Assembly (NCBI GenBank): GCA_003023725.1
Contig: PXYT01000047.1
Coordinates: 1-39,213 of the forward strand
Source of the DNA: Sulfobacillus benefaciens
GTDB lineage: Bacteria > Bacillota > Sulfobacillia > Sulfobacillales > Sulfobacillaceae
Direction of reading: 5' to 3'
DNA: 39,213 bases
Shown here: positions 18,517 through 39,213 of the stretch, piece after piece
Numbering within the stretch: position 1 is the stretch's first letter
Layout: the number at the start of each line of letters is the position of its first letter
The notes under the pieces: generated by a model
Told to the model about the DNA's origin: nothing
The model's input: only the letters and a program-made list of their open reading frames with translations
Database searches by the model: none
Position numbers and translations under genes: made by a program

Positions 18517-18796
18517 CCGGTGACGCTCATAACCGGGACGGTTCCCGGCAAATCGGTATTGAATGAAGTTGTGCAGCATCTCCAACATCAGCCCGACATG
18601 GGGTTTTGTGTGAGTTGAGAGAGACCCCATCCCGGTGCCAGATCTTCTTTCGGTTCCCTCTGCTGCCTCCCGAACGCATCTGGAAAGACCGGCTCGAAGA
18701 GACGGGAAAATGGGAATGAGACCGGCAACTCCCGGGGATTTGCTCCGGCATCTCTGCCCGGAAAATACGCTCTCTCCCAGGGGTCCAGTGCTGTGT
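18517..18796. other. Degenerate stretch downstream of an intron remnant
   Basis: On the minus strand this is the sequence just past the decayed group II intron 3' end, i.e. what would have been its 3' exon. A short frame there (KPHVGLMLEMLHNFIQYRFA) looks protein-like, but I do not recognise it. No intact gene. Confidence 0.2.
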
Positions 18797-19010
18797 CCCC
18801 TCATCCAACCGGACTTGTGGTTTTCACACCTTCGGTTCTGTAAGAGCCAGATGCCCCGAAGTTGGGGCGAGGACGTACGCTGAAACTTTCCGTCATATTG
18901 CGCGCAAGGGAGTGCAAGCCGAGCTTCCTTAAGCAGCGCCTGGGCCAGAAGTTTAATGCCGGCTTAGATTCCTGGTTAACCACAAACACCCGAGGGCGCT
19001 GCAGAATCTT
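18797..19010 (-). mobile_element. Decayed 3' end of a group II intron (RT tail plus domain V)
   Basis: At 18797-18838 (minus) a sequence matches domain V and the following bases of the intact intron at 31 kb. It shares GACTTGTGG and the CCCCTCATC-AACCGGACTTG core in plus orientation, with a few substitutions that spoil the stem. Just upstream (18840-19010) one frame reads VFVVNQESKPALNFW...KLGLHSLARN...VRPRP. This aligns by eye with the end of the intact reverse transcriptase (AFVAKRWNRSPALDAEW...HMGLPSLAMM...QLPRP). The CCTCGCCC...GGGCA element between RT stop and domain V is also shared. The rest of the intron is missing, so this is a dead fragment of a related intron. Confidence 0.65.
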
Positions 19011-19220: not shown

Positions 19221-19778
19221 TCACAACCGGTTCTGTGAACCGAAGGCGTCATGGGCAATGCCGCAAGGCACGATCCACTGGAACGATCGTAGGTCAGTGG
19301 TAACATTCAGCGCAAGCTCATGGTATGTGACGTTGTCCTGGCTAGCCATTCCGATGGCGGCAATCTTGTCTTGCCCCACCCAGACGCCGGGGTAGTCTCT
19401 ATCCCGTTGCTCCTGTATTCCCACTTTATCCAGTACCCGAATGGTGACTTCTTCGAGCTCCTCCACCACTTGGTGGAGATCCCGGGGATGCGAGCCTATG
19501 ATCGGATACACGACAAACTGCCCGGGACCATGATAGGTGGCTCGCCCACCCCGGTCGGTTTCAACCAGATCTACATCGCTCGCTTTGAGTGGGGAGGGGA
19601 ATACTTTCAGATCTTCCCATCCCCCTCCCCGGCCCAAGGTGATAGCGTCGGGATGTTCAACCCACAAAAGGATATCGCCGATTTGACCCGCCGCACGGCG
19701 GATACGATAGGCGTGTTGCAGAGTATAGGCTCGCCGATAGTCCAGTCTTCCCAAGCGAATCACGGCAAACGAGTTCAT
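19221..19778 (-). pseudogene. lipB: Octanoyl (lipoyl) transferase LipB, C-terminally truncated
   Basis: LipB moves octanoate from acyl-carrier protein to lipoyl domains. The frame shows HPDAITLGRGGGWEDL, the core RGGRATYHGPGQFVVYP, the catalytic lysine region GQDKIAAIGM, and the catalytic cysteine region WIVPCGI. Right after VPCGI the family sequence stops and an unrelated 12-residue tail (AHDAFGSQNRL) leads to a stop. About 30-45 residues of the usual C-terminus are lost, giving 185 aa. Core catalytic residues remain, so weak activity is not excluded. The ATG at 19778 overlaps the stop of the upstream lpd fragment (ATGA), showing a former lpd-lipB operon. Confidence 0.75.
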
Positions 19779-30898: not shown

Positions 30899-33800
30899 TT
30901 AGCGCATCACACTCGGCATCACAAAATAGTAGATCAGACCCACGATAATCAGCCAGACCAGCACCACCAGCGTCCACCCTAAGTTGTGGCGTATCACTTG
31001 TCCTTCACTGCGAACATACTTACTGGTAGAGTAGGAGGGGTTCTTACGAACCCCGTCCCCTCATCGAACCGGACTTGTGGTTTTTCCACATCCGGCTCTC
31101 CGACGATAGTTGCCCTAGCACTAAGGGCGAGGAAGTTGCGCCAGAACTTGGCGGCGCATCATAGCAAGAGAAGGTAAACCCATATGGGCTAGGCGGGTGT
31201 TGGTCCACTCAGCATCGAGAGCGGGACTGCGATTCCAGCGTTTGGCCACGAAGGCCCGACATCGCTCGCGGACCCAAGCATCCAGTTGGTAGTAATTGCC
31301 GTTGTGGCTTATGGTGAAATACTGCCCCCACCCCCGGATTACCGGTGCGAGGTCGTCAATCACCATCTGCAGATTCATCGGACGGGTTCGCCGTGTCAGC
31401 TCCCGAACGCGATTCTTGAAGCGCTCGGCGGCTGCCTGTTTTGGGCCAAAGAGAGGGCGGCCGGGGCCGCCCTTGGTCGGTGCCCAGAAGAACGTAAAGC
31501 CCAAGAAATCGAAGGCCGTTGCCCGCACGTTCACGATGCGGGTTTTCTCCGGGTGAAGCGTGAGCCGCAATTCACCGAGGACGATCTGGGCCATCCTGAG
31601 AGCGGCTTGGGCATCTTCTTGGGTCCGTGCCAGCGCACACCAATCATCTGCGTAGCGGATGAATTGAATGCCCGGTAGACGTGCCATGGCTTGGTCCAAT
31701 GCGTCGAGGTAGATGTTGGCCAACAGGGGACTAATCACCGACCCTTGGCTCGTTCCGCGAGAGGTCGGTTGCCATTGCCCGGCGTCCATGACGCCGGCCC
31801 GTAGCATATCACGCAACCACCCCAGTACAGTGCCATCCGAGATGCGTTCTGCCACCTTATCGATCAGGAGTTGTTGGTCGATAGAACCAAAATAGTCCCG
31901 AATGTCGGCATCCACCACCCAGTGATATCCGTCACTCAGATGGGCGAAAATGCGGTGGACCGCCTCATGGGCACTCCGGCCCGGTCGGAAGCCGTAGCTA
32001 TCGACACTAAAGGTGGGTTCCCAGATAGGCTCCATCACCCGCCGCATGGCTTCCTCCGCTACGCGGTCCCGGATAGCCGGAACCCCTAAGGGCCGTTGCT
32101 TCTTGGTGCCCGGCTTGGGTATCCAGACACGGCGAACCGGCAAGGGTTTATAGCGATGCTCCTGCATCGCACGCCCGAGTCGGTCGAGCTCGTCGCCCAG
32201 ATGCTCCGCAAATTGGTCACCACTCTGGTGGTCGACTCCTGCAGCCCCGCGGTTGGCTAAGACCGCCGCGGCGGCCATCGCTAGAATTCGCGGGGTTCCA
32301 GACTTTATCCGCCATACTATACCATTTTCTTTGCAGTGCCATCCTCGTCTCCTCCATTCGTGCCGCCAGACGCCCCCATGGGGCACGGCTGTCTTTAGGG
32401 CCGGAGCCCAATCTTGCCTTGCCAGCGGGCACGCTCATGTGAGAATCCTATCGAAGTGACCGCCCTTCCCATTCCCGCGGAGTTCTGTTGTCTCCTGCGG
32501 TACTTCGGTACTATGCCGGTCTCCGACTCCCTATCCCACCCAAGAGCGGGGGTTGGCGGTCATCGCATTGCCCACTTGTCGAACTCTTGGACCAGACAGG
32601 GTCTCGCCGGGTCAGTCACAGTTCTTTCCTTCGGTGCCATCCCTAACCACCCGACGGGGTACGCTATGGTGCTGCTCGTTCCGTACTCGCTACAGGTAGC
32701 GATACCATGCTAACCACGGCGTTAGGAGGCTTCGCCCGATCGACGAGGGCTCGCCACCACCGTCAGGCCACCACGGGTTCACAGTTCGTTACGGCCCCGA
32801 AATTTGGCTCAGGCCCACCAGATTCTGGGTTACCCCAGACACCCTGCCATTATTGCCTACCGCACTTGAACGAGGAAATTCGCACGGGTTAGACTTTCAC
32901 TAACAAGAACTGCAACCTGCCGGTCGCACGTCGACACACCGACACTCGCGGTCTGTGGAGCAATGGGTTTGCCAACCTCTGCGCCGACGGAGTTCAGCGA
33001 CGGTAACAATAGGAGAGGGAAACCCAGAATTTTCCCGACCAGCGTCTGCATCAAACCAAACATGGCATTGGTCGAGGTGTTGCTTCCGGAAAGAGCCACT
33101 CCAATCCAGCCCAAAATGGGCGCCAGTAAGATGAACATTGGACCAACACGACTAAAAGTGTAGGCCAAAGAAGCCGCCATTCCCGAAAAGTTGAAGACGT
33201 CGGCCAGCCCGAAGATGAAGAAGCCAACCAAAATGGCACCCCACATTTGATACAGGGATGTTCGAAATATCTGACCGATGGTCCGGATCTTAGGACGCAA
33301 CAACAACAAAATAATAAGCCATGATGCAAGAATCGAAGTTCCTCCGACAAAAGGAGCAAAATTAAAGTCCACACTGGTGGCTTGATGCGAGATGGAGGAA
33401 ATGCCTACGACCTTCAACAGCAACCAACTGATCTGAGGCAACGGAGACCAAGGGCCGGTCCATAATACGACGACGATAATTAACACAATAAAGGGCAGCC
33501 AGGACCGGAATATTTCCTTGGTGCTTAAATGTGTTTCTTCGTTGCGAGCCGCCGCCACCTCGTCCAATTCCACTCCACCGAATCCCAAGATGTGCCGGGG
33601 ACGCCACACTTTTAAAAACAGCAAGAGACAGATAAAGGACACCAATGACCCGGTGACGTCGGGTAAATAAGGGCCGACCCATTGCGACACGGGAAACTGG
33701 CCTAAAATATAGGAGAACGATCCCACCACGGCTAGCGGCCAACCATCTCTGAATCCCTTTTTCCCCGTGACCAAATAAATCAAGACCCATGGCGGCAACA

Positions 33801-34407
33801 GGGCCAGAAGAGCCACAACCTTTCCTACTGAAGCAGAGAGGCTCATCAAAGGCAACCCGGTCACCGCGGCCAAAGCGATAATGGGAACGCCGAGAGCGCC
33901 ATAGGAGACCGGGGCATTATTGGCAATCGCGGCGACTCGGATAGCGTCGATCTCGACGATACCAAAACCCACTAAAATCGGAGCCATAACAGCCCACGGA
34001 TAACCAAAACCCACGAGGCCTTCCAACAAGGCGCCTAAAGACCATGCCAGCAAAATGGCCTGAACTCTGACATCGGCCGTTGCCTGTCCTACAAGCCACG
34101 TTTTGAAAGTGTCAAATACCCCTGTCAGCATCAGAGTATTGAAAATCATAACACCCCAAAAGGTAATCCAGTCGATAAACCAAAAACCCGTCAAACTGCC
34201 CAGAATGTAGGCGTGAAGTCCGGTTACGATGGGCAGTTTCCATACGACGATAGCCATAAACAGCGTCACAATGGATCCGATAATGGTTGACAACCAAGCG
34301 GTTACGCGCATGCCGGCCAGTAAACCCAGGAGAATGACAAAAGGGATTAACGCAAAGATTGCCGTAAGTCCTAAATTATGCGCTGGATTTAAGATTTGGT
34401 GAAACAC
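30899..34407 (-). CDS. Lactate/glycolate permease, split by a group II intron
   Basis: LctP-family membrane permease importing lactate or glycolate. Exon 1 runs 34407-32930 (GTG start, GGGTGGGG upstream) and carries the many helices and family motifs LEGLVGFGYPWAVMAPILVG, APVSYGALGVPIIALAAVTG, SGSNTSTNAMFG and GKPIAPQTASVGVST. Exon 2 runs 31025-30899 and encodes KYVRSEGQVIRHNLGWTLVV plus a last helix (VLVWLIIVGLIYYFVMPSVM) and TAA. Joining the exons completes the codon AC|C (Thr) and gives 534 aa with a normal C-terminus. Without splicing, translation adds about 22 junk residues and stops at 32857, losing the last helix. Downstream of glycolate oxidase genes, glycolate is the likely substrate. 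Function depends on splicing. Confidence 0.85.
31037..31098 (-). ncRNA. Group II intron domains V and VI
   Basis: Domain V is 33 nt with perfectly pairing ends (GAGCCGGA with TCCGGTTC, allowing the AAG bulge) and an upper GTGG-AAAAA-CCAC hairpin, as in bacterial group II introns. Domain VI is the GGGGTTC-GTAA-GAACCCC hairpin, 11 nt before the 3' splice site. A single branch-point A cannot be placed with certainty. Confidence 0.8.
31121..32342 (-). CDS. Group II intron reverse transcriptase/maturase, apparent N-terminal frameshift
   Basis: Promotes intron splicing and retrohoming. Blocks in order are NRGAAGVDHQSGDQFAEHL, RRVWIPKPGTKKQRPLGVPA, DSYGFRPGRSAHEAVHRIF, VVDADIRDYFGSID, RGTSQGSVISPLLANIYL and the catalytic FIRYADDW. 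LTLHPEKTRIVNV, FDFLGFTF and a maturase X domain ending HMGLPSLAMMRRQVLAQLPR follow. No HNH endonuclease follows. The best start is the ATG at 32342, 6 nt after GGAGGAG, giving MALQRKWYSMADKVWNPAN. Near 32284 one extra base (AATTCTA for AATCTA) shifts the frame before LAMAAAAVLANRG. Corrected length is 406 aa. Uncorrected, a GTG at 32386 opens the main frame but with an unfamily-like N-terminus. Confidence 0.82.
32343..32929 (-). other. Intron 5' RNA domains (I-III)
   Basis: About 590 bp between the intron 5' end and the RT start code for no protein and correspond to ribozyme domains I-III and the start of IV. A stem around 32735-32753 presents the EBS1 loop. Long GC-rich complementary segments (e.g. 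CCACGGGTTCACAG against CTGTGAACCCGTGG reading on opposite strands) indicate structured RNA. Open frames seen here are chance. Confidence 0.6.
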
Positions 34408-35379: not shown

Positions 35380-36825
35380 TCATTCGCCTGTGGATTCCCT
35401 ACCGGGATATGTCCCGATCACGGCATTTTCGTCGTGACAGGTCGATGCGGTGGGCAGCAACTTTCCGGGATTTAAAATGTCTATGGGATCAAACGCGTGC
35501 TTGAGGGCCCTTTGTGCCGCCAACTCGCTTTCGGTAAATTGCCGGCGCATATCCTCCCGCTTTTCGATTCCCACTCCATGTTCTCCGGTAATGCTCCCAC
35601 CCAGTTCCACACACACCGCCAATATTTCTGAACCCGCGTCCACAACGCGGCGCACCATCTCTTTGTCATGCTCGTCATACAGCAAAAGAGGGTGAAGATT
35701 GCCATCACCGGCATGAAACACATTGGCAATACGGACATCTCGCCTGCGGCCGATTTCGTTGATGCGCTCCAAAGCCTCCGGAAGCCGGCTACGCGGAATC
35801 ACGCCGTCTTGCACATAATATTGGGGGGAAATCAGCCCCATTGCCCCAAAAGCCGTTTTACGGTTGGCCCACCAAAGATTTTTTTCTTCGGGTGTGGCCG
35901 CAAGACGCACTTCGCGCACGAGATGCTTCTGCAGTATGACTTGCACCCGAGTGGCCATCGTATGGACTTCCCGGGATTCCCCATCCACCTCTATCAAGAG
36001 TACGGCGGCCAAATTTTCGGGATATCCCACCCGGTATGGCCCCTTTTCCACGGCATAAATTGCCAAACGGTCCATCATTTCCAAGGCCGCCGGAATAATT
36101 CCCGCCGCCACGACAGCGGAAACCGCCTGACTGGCTTCGTTAACATCGTCAAATAAGGCCAACACGGTTTGACTCTCGGAGGGCTTGTGCGTTATCCGCA
36201 GCCATAATTTGGTTGCAATGACCAGAGTTCCTTCGGAACCCACCGCCAAGCCCAGCCAGTCTATGGCATCAGGTTCGCCGGCCAGGTTCCCCAACACAAC
36301 CCTCTCACCTTCACTCGTGACGGTTTCCGCCATCACGATGTGGTTGACCGTGACACCATATTTCAAGCAATGGGGCCCTCCGGAATTTTCGGCAAAGTTT
36401 CCTCCGATTGTGCAGGCCTGTTGTGAAGAAGGATCAGGCGCATAAAAAAAACCCAAAGGCGCCAAGGCACGCGTTATGTCGGCATTGACAACCCCAGGTT
36501 CCACCACGACTACCTGATTTTCCGTATCGATATCGATAATCCGGTTCATGCGGGATAAATGGATAATGACGGTACCGTTTAGAGGAGTGGCTCCTCCCGA
36601 CAAACTGGTCCCGGCTCCTCTGGCCAAAAACGGCACGTGATGACTGCGCAACACACGGACAACATCTTGCACCTCGGCAGTATTCCCAGGCAGAACCACC
36701 GCCGCTGGCGCCTCTTGAGCCAATGTATAGGCATCACAAGAATAGGGCAACAGATCCATAGAATCCGTCAGCACAAAATCCGGACCGACGGCCTGCTTCA
36801 ATTCCTCAACCCCGGCTTCATTCAC
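35380..36825 (-). CDS. glcD: Glycolate oxidase FAD subunit GlcD
   Basis: 481 aa FAD-linked oxidase (VAO/PCMH fold) oxidising glycolate (or D-lactate) to the oxo-acid. The FAD-binding part reads VPFLARGAGTSLSGGATPLN, GVVNADITRALAPLGFFYAP and IGGNFAENSGGPHCLKYGVT. The C-terminal cap has NVFHAGDGNLHPLLLYDEHD and GGSITGEHGVGIEKREDM, and ends with LNPGKLLP. The GTG start at 36825 follows AGGGGGG by 8 nt, 12 bp after the glcE stop, so glcE and glcD are co-translated. Electrons normally go through GlcF to quinone; GlcF is not in the window, so another acceptor or a distant gene is implied. Confidence 0.93.
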   Translation of the reverse strand: MNEAGVEELKQAVGPDFVLTDSMDLLPYSCDAYTLAQEAPAAVVLPGNTAEVQDVVRVLRSHHVPFLARGAGTSLSGGATPLNGTVIIHLSRMNRIIDIDTENQVVVVEPGVVNADITRALAPLGFFYAPDPSSQQACTIGGNFAENSGGPHCLKYGVTVNHIVMAETVTSEGERVVLGNLAGEPDAIDWLGLAVGSEGTLVIATKLWLRITHKPSESQTVLALFDDVNEASQAVSAVVAAGIIPAALEMMDRLAIYAVEKGPYRVGYPENLAAVLLIEVDGESREVHTMATRVQVILQKHLVREVRLAATPEEKNLWWANRKTAFGAMGLISPQYYVQDGVIPRSRLPEALERINEIGRRRDVRIANVFHAGDGNLHPLLLYDEHDKEMVRRVVDAGSEILAVCVELGGSITGEHGVGIEKREDMRRQFTESELAAQRALKHAFDPIDILNPGKLLPTASTCHDENAVIGTYPGRESTGE

Positions 36826-36837
36826 AAAATCACCCCC

Positions 36838-37884
36838 CTATCCCAGAATGGCTTGCGGATCGTAGGCGTCTTTCAGCCGCTTCCATATTGGCATGAGAGC
36901 CGGCGGGACCGGCAGGTCCTCATGGAGCCCCGAGAGCACTGCAACTCCGCCTGAACGTTCCCGGATCCAGTTCTCCATTCTAGGTGCGTCCTCTTCGGAC
37001 AATGTTCCCAAAAATCCGCCGGACTGCCATTCCACGGCCAATAGCCCATTTTCCCATACGCCTATCACATCCTGAACAGTTTTGCGGGGAACAGCACCTT
37101 TGAGTGTCACGGCACCCGGTTTCCAGGGCCGGGTCATGAGCGGCAAATCAGGGGACCCGGGTTCTTTCGTCGCGGCGAGATAATCCACGGTCTCGGCGAC
37201 ACCATGCCAGGCCGCCCACAGCCGGGTTCCCTTCTGGCTGGGATCGGCAATGAATGCAATACCGGCCCATGGGGTTGCCCACCCCATCAAATCATTGGCC
37301 TTCGCCGACATTTCGCTTAAACTTCCCTCCCAGGCCCAATACCGTCGAGACTGTGGAAGAGGACTGACCTTCAATGTCACCTGAGTGATGATTCCCAAGG
37401 TCCCCCGGGATCCAAAAAAGAGACGGGAAAGATTATAGCCGGCCACGTTTTTCACCACTGCCGCCCCAACTTGAATAGCGCCAAACCCCGGAGTGAGAAC
37501 ACGAAGACCTAAAACCCGGTCGCGGAACGAACCATATCCTCCTCGCCAGATGCCATCAAGTCCGGCGCTCACGGCACCCCCCACCGTATCATCCTGCCCG
37601 TCCGCCACCGTCAAGGGGATCCATTGCCCATGTTCCGCCAAGATTCGATTGAGTGCCTTCACACTCATGCCGGCTTCCACCGTGACGACCAAGTCTGCCG
37701 GATGATAGGCGACGATATCGTTCCACCCCGTCAAAGAATAGCTCCGCGTGGCAGGTTCTCCTGCCGGTCTCTGGAGCCGGTGCCCCAATCCTTCGACTCT
37801 GAGGGTTTGATTGTCACGCCGGACTTCTGCAAAAACGGCTAACAGCTCCTGTTCTTGTGCCAGAATGTCGGCCTTCACTTTCAT
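36838..37884 (-). CDS. glcE: Glycolate oxidase subunit GlcE
   Basis: 348 aa FAD-binding protein, shorter relative of GlcD. Features are NQTLRVEGLGHRLQRPAGEP, LVVTVEAGMSVKALNRILAE, DDTVGGAVSAGLDGIWRGGY, FRDRVLGLRVLTPGFGAIQV and KNVAGYNLSRLFFGSRGTLG. The C-terminal domain ends AYDPQAIL. The ATG at 37884 follows GGAGGTGA by 8 nt, 20 bp after glxR. It forms the membrane-associated glycolate oxidase with GlcD (and normally GlcF). The presence of separate glcD and glcE matches the three-subunit enzyme rather than two-gene Bacillus-type versions. Confidence 0.92.
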   Translation of the reverse strand: MKVKADILAQEQELLAVFAEVRRDNQTLRVEGLGHRLQRPAGEPATRSYSLTGWNDIVAYHPADLVVTVEAGMSVKALNRILAEHGQWIPLTVADGQDDTVGGAVSAGLDGIWRGGYGSFRDRVLGLRVLTPGFGAIQVGAAVVKNVAGYNLSRLFFGSRGTLGIITQVTLKVSPLPQSRRYWAWEGSLSEMSAKANDLMGWATPWAGIAFIADPSQKGTRLWAAWHGVAETVDYLAATKEPGSPDLPLMTRPWKPGAVTLKGAVPRKTVQDVIGVWENGLLAVEWQSGGFLGTLSEEDAPRMENWIRERSGGVAVLSGLHEDLPVPPALMPIWKRLKDAYDPQAILG

Positions 37885-37904
37885 TTCCGTTCACCTCCGG
37901 AACC

Positions 37905-38811
37905 TTAATCCCACGCGACGTTGGCCCGCCGGGCAATTTCCGCCACAAGATATGAATGGTCCCGGTCGCCATACCCATGAGCCAAAAGTCCGTTCATCAT
38001 ATCATGCGCCAAGGCGGTGAGAGGCGTGGACACCCCTAGTTCTTGTGCCGTATTCAGCGCGATGGCCAAATCTTTGCGGTGCAGTTGCAGCCGGAATCCC
38101 GGGTCAAAGTGATGGTCCAAGGCTCGCTGTCCATGCACCTCCAGCACGCGGCTTTGGGCGAAGCCCCCCCAAGAGAGCTTCCCGCACTTTTGCCGGGTCG
38201 ACACCAGACTTTTGAGCCAACACCAAAGCCTCCCCTACAGCCTCAATGGTTAAAGCTACTACCACTTGGTTGCAGGCTTTGGCCACTTGGCCGGCTCCAC
38301 TTTCCCCGATGTGAACGATATTTTTCCCCATGGCTTGCAAGAGGGGAGAGGCACGTTCGAACGCGGAGCGGGTTCCTCCTACCATGATGGATAGCGTTCC
38401 CGCCTTGGCACCCACATCACCGCCGGATACGGGCGCATCCAAACTGTCGGCACCTTTTTCTTGTGCGGCCTGGTCAATCTTTCGGGCAATGGCAGGGGTT
38501 ACGGTGGACATGTCGATCAGCAAGTGTCCTTTCCGCACCCCGGTCATAATGCCTTGAGGGCCAAAGTACACAGCTTCCACATCGGGGGTATCGGGCAACA
38601 TGGTCATCACAATATCTGATTGTTCGGCCACCCGGCTCGCATTATCCGCCGTATCAGCCCCTTGGGCAGCCAACTGAGCCATCTTGCCGGGACTCCGATT
38701 GTAAACGACTAAAGGATAACCGCTGCGTAACAGATTTTCCGCCATAGGGCGGCCCATTATGCCCAGACCGATGAATCCCACCCGCGGTTTCGTCTCTTGC
38801 GTATCCTCCAT
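37905..38811 (-). pseudogene. glxR: Tartronate semialdehyde reductase, frameshift in a G7 tract
   Basis: Beta-hydroxyacid dehydrogenase reducing tartronate semialdehyde to glycerate. The first frame (ATG 38811, AAGGAG upstream) has the NAD motif VGFIGLGIMGRPMAENL, the substrate motif DAPVSGGDVGAKAGTLSIMV and the catalytic lysine GAGQVAKACNQ. After KVREALLGG the frame breaks at seven G's (38164-38170). The rest is read +1: FAQSRVLEVHGQRALDHHFD, PGFRLQLHRKDLAIALN and HDMMNGLLAHGYGDRDHSYL, ending at 37905. With six G's the product is a normal 301 aa. Homopolymer error, slippage or a fresh mutation are all possible. The uncorrected 235-aa product lacks the C-terminal dimer domain. Confidence 0.85.
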
Positions 38812-38882
38812 GGTGATCCCGCTCCTTGTACCGGATTTTCACCCTTGGTGATAGTGATGAATAATCTGTCGTGGTCTTGCCT

Positions 38883-39213
38883 TTACCCCATAGGCTGCCC
38901 CAGCTCATAGTGACGCCACCACTCCAGGCTGTCTTCCGTTGAACCCAGCGGAATATATTCCAATCCGATATAATCCGAATATTGGGCATCTTCCAGGGCT
39001 TGAAAAATCCGGCCATAATGCAATTCTCCCGTTCCCGGTTGATGCCGTCCGGGATTATCGGCTATTTGAATATGGCCAATGCGTGCTTTCAAGGCATTAA
39101 AGGTGTTAATAATGTCCCCTTGAGTACGCTGCATATGGTAAATGTCATATTGGATCTTTACGTTGGAATGAGAAGAGAGTCCCACTTCATTCAGTAATGA
39201 TATGACTTCCCGG
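38883..39213 (-). CDS. hyi: Hydroxypyruvate isomerase, C-terminal part (runs off window)
   Basis: The start lies beyond the right edge; 109 C-terminal residues are visible. They match the TIM-barrel hydroxypyruvate isomerase family: VKIQYDIYHMQRTQGDIINT, ARIGHIQIADNPGRHQPGTG and DYIGLEYIPLGSTEDSLEWW. The metal-binding and catalytic Asp, His and Glu of these motifs are present. It interconverts hydroxypyruvate and tartronate semialdehyde and so works with GlxR in glyoxylate use. It is 71 bp upstream of glxR on the same strand and probably in one operon with glcE-glcD. A glyoxylate carboligase might lie further right. Confidence 0.85.
   Translation of the reverse strand, partial: REVISLLNEVGLSSHSNVKIQYDIYHMQRTQGDIINTFNALKARIGHIQIADNPGRHQPGTGELHYGRIFQALEDAQYSDYIGLEYIPLGSTEDSLEWWRHYELGQPMG

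Follow-up and report, generated by a model that had tools for sequence, protein, structure and literature searches.

A group IIC intron inside a glycolate permease gene of Sulfobacillus benefaciens

A contig of Sulfobacillus benefaciens (PXYT01000047.1), analysed here over its full 39,213 nt and referred to as the window, carries a GlcA/LctP-family permease gene that is split by a group IIC intron. In the reading that we favor, with a probability of roughly 0.62, this intron retrohomed at a hairpin within the gene, and the transcript is at least partly spliced to yield a 534-aa permease. The intron boundaries, the empty alleles of relatives, the normal protein restored by intron removal, a conserved ribozyme scaffold and the target rule of the intron family are all supported by the sequence.

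A permease gene split in a glycolate operon

The gene and its surroundings comprise the following elements.

30899..31025, minus strand: permease 3′ exon, 127 nt, from the last base of Thr-493 to the TAA stop, encoding the conserved C-terminal segment
31026..32929, minus strand: group IIC intron, 1904 nt, GTGCG...CTCTAC, defined by RF00029, full-length relatives with the same ends and empty alleles
32930..34407, minus strand: permease 5′ exon (GlcA/LctP family), 1478 nt, comprising codons 1-492 and the first two bases of Thr-493
35380..39185, minus strand: glcD, glcE, glxR (frameshifted) and hyi, upstream of the permease on the same strand, from family scans

The exons join in a 534-aa frame, and the junction splits a Thr codon after AC, its final C coming from exon 2. 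In the predicted ligated product, GTGTCGAC is joined directly to CAGTAAG. Both intron ends fit the group II rule, GUGYG at the 5′ end and AY at the 3′ end (here GTGCG...AC). The unspliced permease ORF matches PF02652 (E 2.4e-93) and also TIGR00795, with 310.1 bits over profile positions 6-497. With the exons joined, the TIGR00795 match reaches 324.3 bits and spans positions 6-528 of 530, slightly below the curated cut-off of 341; the joined permease therefore aligns with the GlcA/LctP family over its full length, C-terminus included.

Intron-free orthologues were found in six related genomes (G006, G011, G003, G004, G031 and G029). They are 83-88% identical to the joined protein from first to last residue (533-534 aa), and across the junction they read ...ASVGVST-S-x-YVRSEG-x-VIRHNL..., the sequence obtained here by exact removal of the intron. 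A chance match is disfavored, since related introns elsewhere share the start and end bases and the joined protein is matched by six orthologues over its entire length. None of the homologues compared stops where the unspliced frame does, and the 3′-exon sequence is present in every close orthologue. The initial annotation had described a group II intron in the permease gene, with exons of 1478 and 127 nt flanking 1904 nt of intron, a 534-aa joined protein and a junction within a Thr codon. All of these values were reproduced, the same-ended relatives and the empty alleles bear out the intron itself, and the six-orthologue alignment agrees with its proposal that exact removal restores the family C-terminus. 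It had also named homologues ending at the unspliced stop as the observation that would speak against it, and the comparison above turned up no such protein.

The insertion is absent from the permease genes of all relatives compared, the host species being sampled by one genome. In genome G041, the permease gene (L065 4814-6656, same gene order) is interrupted near codon 131 by about 1.8 kb. We considered this segment as a second intron and rejected it: it holds serine-recombinase-like and TnpB-like genes and no domain V, and it resembles an IS607-like element, as judged by reading and not by a family scan.

An assembly error that fused a repeated intron to the permease would produce a similar picture. 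In several draft genomes, contigs break off at related copies, which marks the intron as an assembly-breaking repeat. However, confusion between copies is unlikely, since the nearest copy in the host genome is only 74% identical; moreover, the junctions fall exactly between the halves of one gene, and the exon-binding sequence of the intron fits its own 5′ exon. We regard such an error as extremely improbable.

The permease and the genes upstream of it form a glycolate operon, of which the permease is the last gene shown. This follows from the presence on the same strand of glcD, glcE, a glxR-type gene for an NAD-binding protein and hyi for a xylose isomerase-like protein (all four assigned by family scans), together with gcl- and glcF-like ORFs that continue the operon just beyond the window and were named by reading the sequence alone. 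No second permease of the GlcA/LctP family was found in the host genome, and the gene split by the intron is the only detectable glycolate permease of this bacterium. The glxR-type gene (38811..37905, minus strand) falls into two frames, separated at seven consecutive G (38164-38170); this reflects a sequencing error or, alternatively, a second lesion of the operon. None of the stretches compared from relatives contains glxR.

Ribozyme, intron family and target site

The elements of the ribozyme and of its target are as follows.

31026..31100, minus strand: domains V and VI, Rfam RF00029, 50.6 bits against a cut-off of 40, E 3.4e-7
32360..32929, minus strand: 5′ ribozyme part (domain I and later domains before the IEP), RNAalifold consensus of 10 copies
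32739..32744, minus strand: EBS1 GTCGAT, located in a conserved hairpin loop of domain I in the consensus fold, pairing 6/6 with IBS1
32930..32935, minus strand: IBS1 GTCGAC, the final six bases of the 5′ exon
32934..32957, minus strand: imperfect exon-1 hairpin, CACA-ga-CCG...CGG-TGTG, ending 4-5 nt before the intron, DNA fold -5.1 kcal/mol

The consensus fold of the 5′ part (590 columns, 10 copies) contains 157 pairs, 64 of which show a compensatory change in at least one copy. The permease copy departs from otherwise invariant columns at only two private positions, among the fewest of the 10 copies. Together with domains V and VI, this fold gives the six-domain group II architecture, with domains II-IV not individually delimited. 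Only 8 of the 4096 possible hexamers can pair fully with EBS1. A search for EBS3-IBS3, the pairing with the +1 base of the 3′ exon, found one of 590 columns complementary in six of six copies. With eight copies and another alignment, no column was perfect, and the pairing is not claimed.

A DNA search recovered relatives of this intron from 25 of 61 related genomes, many with identical first and last bases. We read about 27 other 5′ junctions, all from the same taxonomic family. At almost every junction, a hairpin precedes the intron at a distance of 4-7 nt, and many of these hairpins are terminator-like. At 18 of the 19 sites tested, the permease site included, the hairpin ranks in the top 5% for stability among the 600 nt upstream. 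EBS1 and IBS1 covary across the family, with 90 of 114 pairs formed as compared to a mean of 56.9 and a maximum of 78 in shuffles (0 of 100,000 reach 90). The hairpin-led sites, this covariation and the GsI-IIC RT as best solved relative of the IEP assign the permease intron to group IIC (class C). The domain V/VI and the 6-bp EBS1-IBS1 pairing of the initial annotation are confirmed, the former by the RF00029 search, the latter by pairing at all six positions and by family-wide covariation. Its identification as group II likewise stands; it had overlooked the group IIC class, the maturase frameshift and the change in the domain V loop. The class matters, because it makes the position inside a gene unusual and at the same time explains the route of entry.

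Group IIC introns have been described as landing after intrinsic terminators and sparing coding sequence (PMC4424553, PMC8919778). Both articles cite Robart et al. 2007 for insertion after intrinsic terminators, and coding sequences are said to stay unbroken by class C introns (PMC8919778). At the permease site, the exon-1 hairpin is likely the target stem-loop, although a weak one and inside coding sequence. Its DNA fold energy places it 22nd among the 1449 positions of exon 1, and none of the 570 preceding positions is equally stable, so that it is the best within 600 nt. The orthologous empty sites score -1.5 to -4.3 kcal/mol, as compared to -5.1 kcal/mol here. The 37 kb of the window left without the intron contain 88 positions with 6/6 EBS1 pairing and a C at +1; a hairpin of -5 kcal/mol or below accompanies two of them, one being the permease site. 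The family preference for stem-loops explains the in-gene insertion and requires no special mechanism.

Other in-gene sites lie in repeated or mobile genes where these could be identified. One copy (L096) is inserted antisense within an IS110-family transposase. Another, on contig C30 of the host genome, sits in a short frame, of which an uninterrupted version with 90% identity (C136:11742-12134) represents an empty paralogous site in the same genome. Several sites known from their 5′ side only lie in open frames matched by no Pfam model. Among the genes that could be identified as interrupted in this sample, only the permease is non-mobile and metabolic.

Further traces of such introns were observed. 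At two sites (L098 around 634, L103 around 4164), family introns lie at the 3′ end of another copy in a twintron-like nesting, where the domain VI hairpin of the resident copy is the target stem-loop. Several draft contigs (C2, C64 and C185 of G002; C45, C64 and C87 of G024) stop within the first ~125 nt of the intron, which suggests collapsed recent copies. In the host genome (G000), the group II domain V model hits 12 places on 11 contigs at E <= 0.001, five of them above the cut-off; several apparently belong to other intron families, and two are about 170 nt apart on contig C15. In the window itself, a degenerate domain V-like match (18795-18839, minus strand; 87% over 45 nt) lies downstream of lipB (19778..19221). 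As a second in-gene intron it was rejected, because the alignment of lipB with relatives extends almost to the end of the gene and no 5′ end of an intron was detected; it is likely an intron remnant. A second lipB is present on contig C84 of the host genome. Our literature search found no published work on introns of Sulfobacillus.

A damaged maturase and the fate of the transcript

Two further elements describe the reading frame within the intron.

31121..32386, minus strand: RT/maturase frame as listed, 421 aa, native IEP only downstream of about 32284
32284..32342, minus strand: native start of the maturase/RT gene to the extra base, with ATG at 32342 behind the Shine-Dalgarno sequence GGAGG, from alignment of relatives

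The frame matches TIGR04416 (E 3.2e-117) and contains RVT_1 and GIIM domains. The IEP terminates shortly past the maturase domain and has no endonuclease domain; among solved structures, class C-type RTs are nearest, the GsI-IIC RT being the best match. A +1 insertion near 32284 (GAATTCTAGC), about 20 codons past the native ATG, is absent from every relative aligned there. Owing to this extra base, the native frame meets a stop after 41 codons, and upstream of about 32284 the 421-aa ORF is open by chance only. In addition, the domain V loop reads AAAAA here and GAAAA in relatives: of 17 other copies, 16 start this loop with G and one has a deletion. This G-to-A change could weaken the tertiary contact of the loop, and the two lesions together could lower splicing of this copy. 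With only two private changes in the 5′ ribozyme part, the scaffold is in good order, but the copy's own maturase supply is probably impaired. The C30 copy (L053, 3834..1925, minus strand) is full length and the nearest found in the host genome. Its IEP is intact and 75% identical to that of the permease intron.

According to the mechanism that we propose, a group IIC retroelement that spreads in this bacterial family behind DNA stem-loops would have retrohomed into the sense strand of the permease, at an in-gene hairpin next to a matching IBS1. When the operon is transcribed, the intron would fold and EBS1 would grip the exon end GTCGAC; splicing with maturase help would then ligate the exons into the message for the 534-aa permease. 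Translation of unspliced transcripts would instead stop within the intron after 516 aa, with ~24 intron-coded residues in place of the conserved C-terminal segment of ~41 residues. As maturase, the damaged IEP translated from an internal start would probably serve, or else a protein acting in trans from a related intron such as the C30 copy. Glycolate uptake may then depend on the ribozyme, as the initial annotation had proposed in the event of splicing. Sequence comparison supports this course as far as target recognition. Splicing, its efficiency and the source of the maturase are what we infer; some splicing, with the full-length permease as its product, appears reasonably probable from the sequence features described.

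The same lesions could mean that the insertion is decaying and defective in splicing, the permease being either a recent pseudogene or functional as the truncated 516-aa protein. The maturase frameshift, the private change in the domain V loop and the apparent glxR frameshift in the same operon, in its seven-G run, all point this way. On the other hand, both exons are intact: exon 2 is free of stops and indels, and its differences from relatives are mainly synonymous (17.5 synonymous and 7.5 nonsynonymous against G011), although synonymous sites are saturated against the nearest orthologues and codon statistics thus cannot separate a recent pseudogene. In its 5′ ribozyme part this copy is one of the least altered, the C-terminal segment is kept by all close homologues compared, and the glxR shift, lying in a homopolymer, may be a sequencing error. 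Exon conservation argues weakly against decay, since a very recent insertion could look identical. We consider decay possible, on the doubtful side.

If the spliced product is made, the intron might also have been kept as a control step, with splicing limited by a trans-acting maturase setting the permease level. Its own maturase is damaged while a related intact copy exists on C30, and its position in the last operon gene shown limits polar effects. However, the insertion is conserved in no relative, hence there is no sign of selection to keep it, and no observation supports regulated splicing. This role is highly unlikely. A narrower version of the splicing model is that this class C intron, settled in a metabolic gene away from any terminator and having lost the start of its own maturase, is spliced in trans by the maturase of a sister copy, glycolate uptake thereby depending on a two-locus ribozyme-maturase system. 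We put this forward tentatively and think it rather unlikely; if true, the intron would have begun to evolve in the direction of organellar introns, which only splice.

Relation to known group II introns

The literature (PMC4424553, PMC3522654) bears out the statement of the initial annotation that bacterial group II introns lie mostly outside genes. The multiplication of class C introns in bacteria is attributed to their landing behind terminators, which spares coding sequence. The permease copy shows that the same hairpin rule can place such an intron inside a metabolic gene. It can serve as a clear natural experiment on whether the splicing of such introns is good enough for the host to tolerate them, given empty orthologues, a large related family and, within one genome, a plausible donor of trans-acting maturase. 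It is also a warning that gene callers will annotate a shortened permease and, separately, an RT.

The permease intron shares with known group IIC introns the hairpin-directed insertion, the EBS1-IBS1 pairing, an IEP without endonuclease domain and a class C-type RT. Here, however, the target hairpin lies within metabolic coding sequence, whereas theirs lies behind a gene. In Geobacillus kaustophilus, recA contains a group II intron described as active and as leaving host survival unaltered (Chee and Takami 2005, as cited in PMC3522654 and PMC4424553). Like the permease intron, it resides in a conserved bacterial protein gene. In contrast, recA is an essential repair gene whose intron was examined experimentally, while the present case, known from its sequence, concerns a metabolic permease and a damaged maturase. 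In Clostridium tetani, the group II intron of a surface-layer protein gene is spliced in vivo in four alternative reactions (PMC3919590); that intron is also in a bacterial protein gene, as compared to the single 3′ exon found here. Ll.LtrB is likewise intragenic, within a relaxase gene whose expression depends on splicing (PMC6003770), but it belongs to another group II class and to a conjugative element, unlike the metabolic operon described here. Overall, conserved bacterial genes only rarely contain group II introns, but such cases are known; the permease, a well-documented new one, is unusual for class C and does not represent a new kind.
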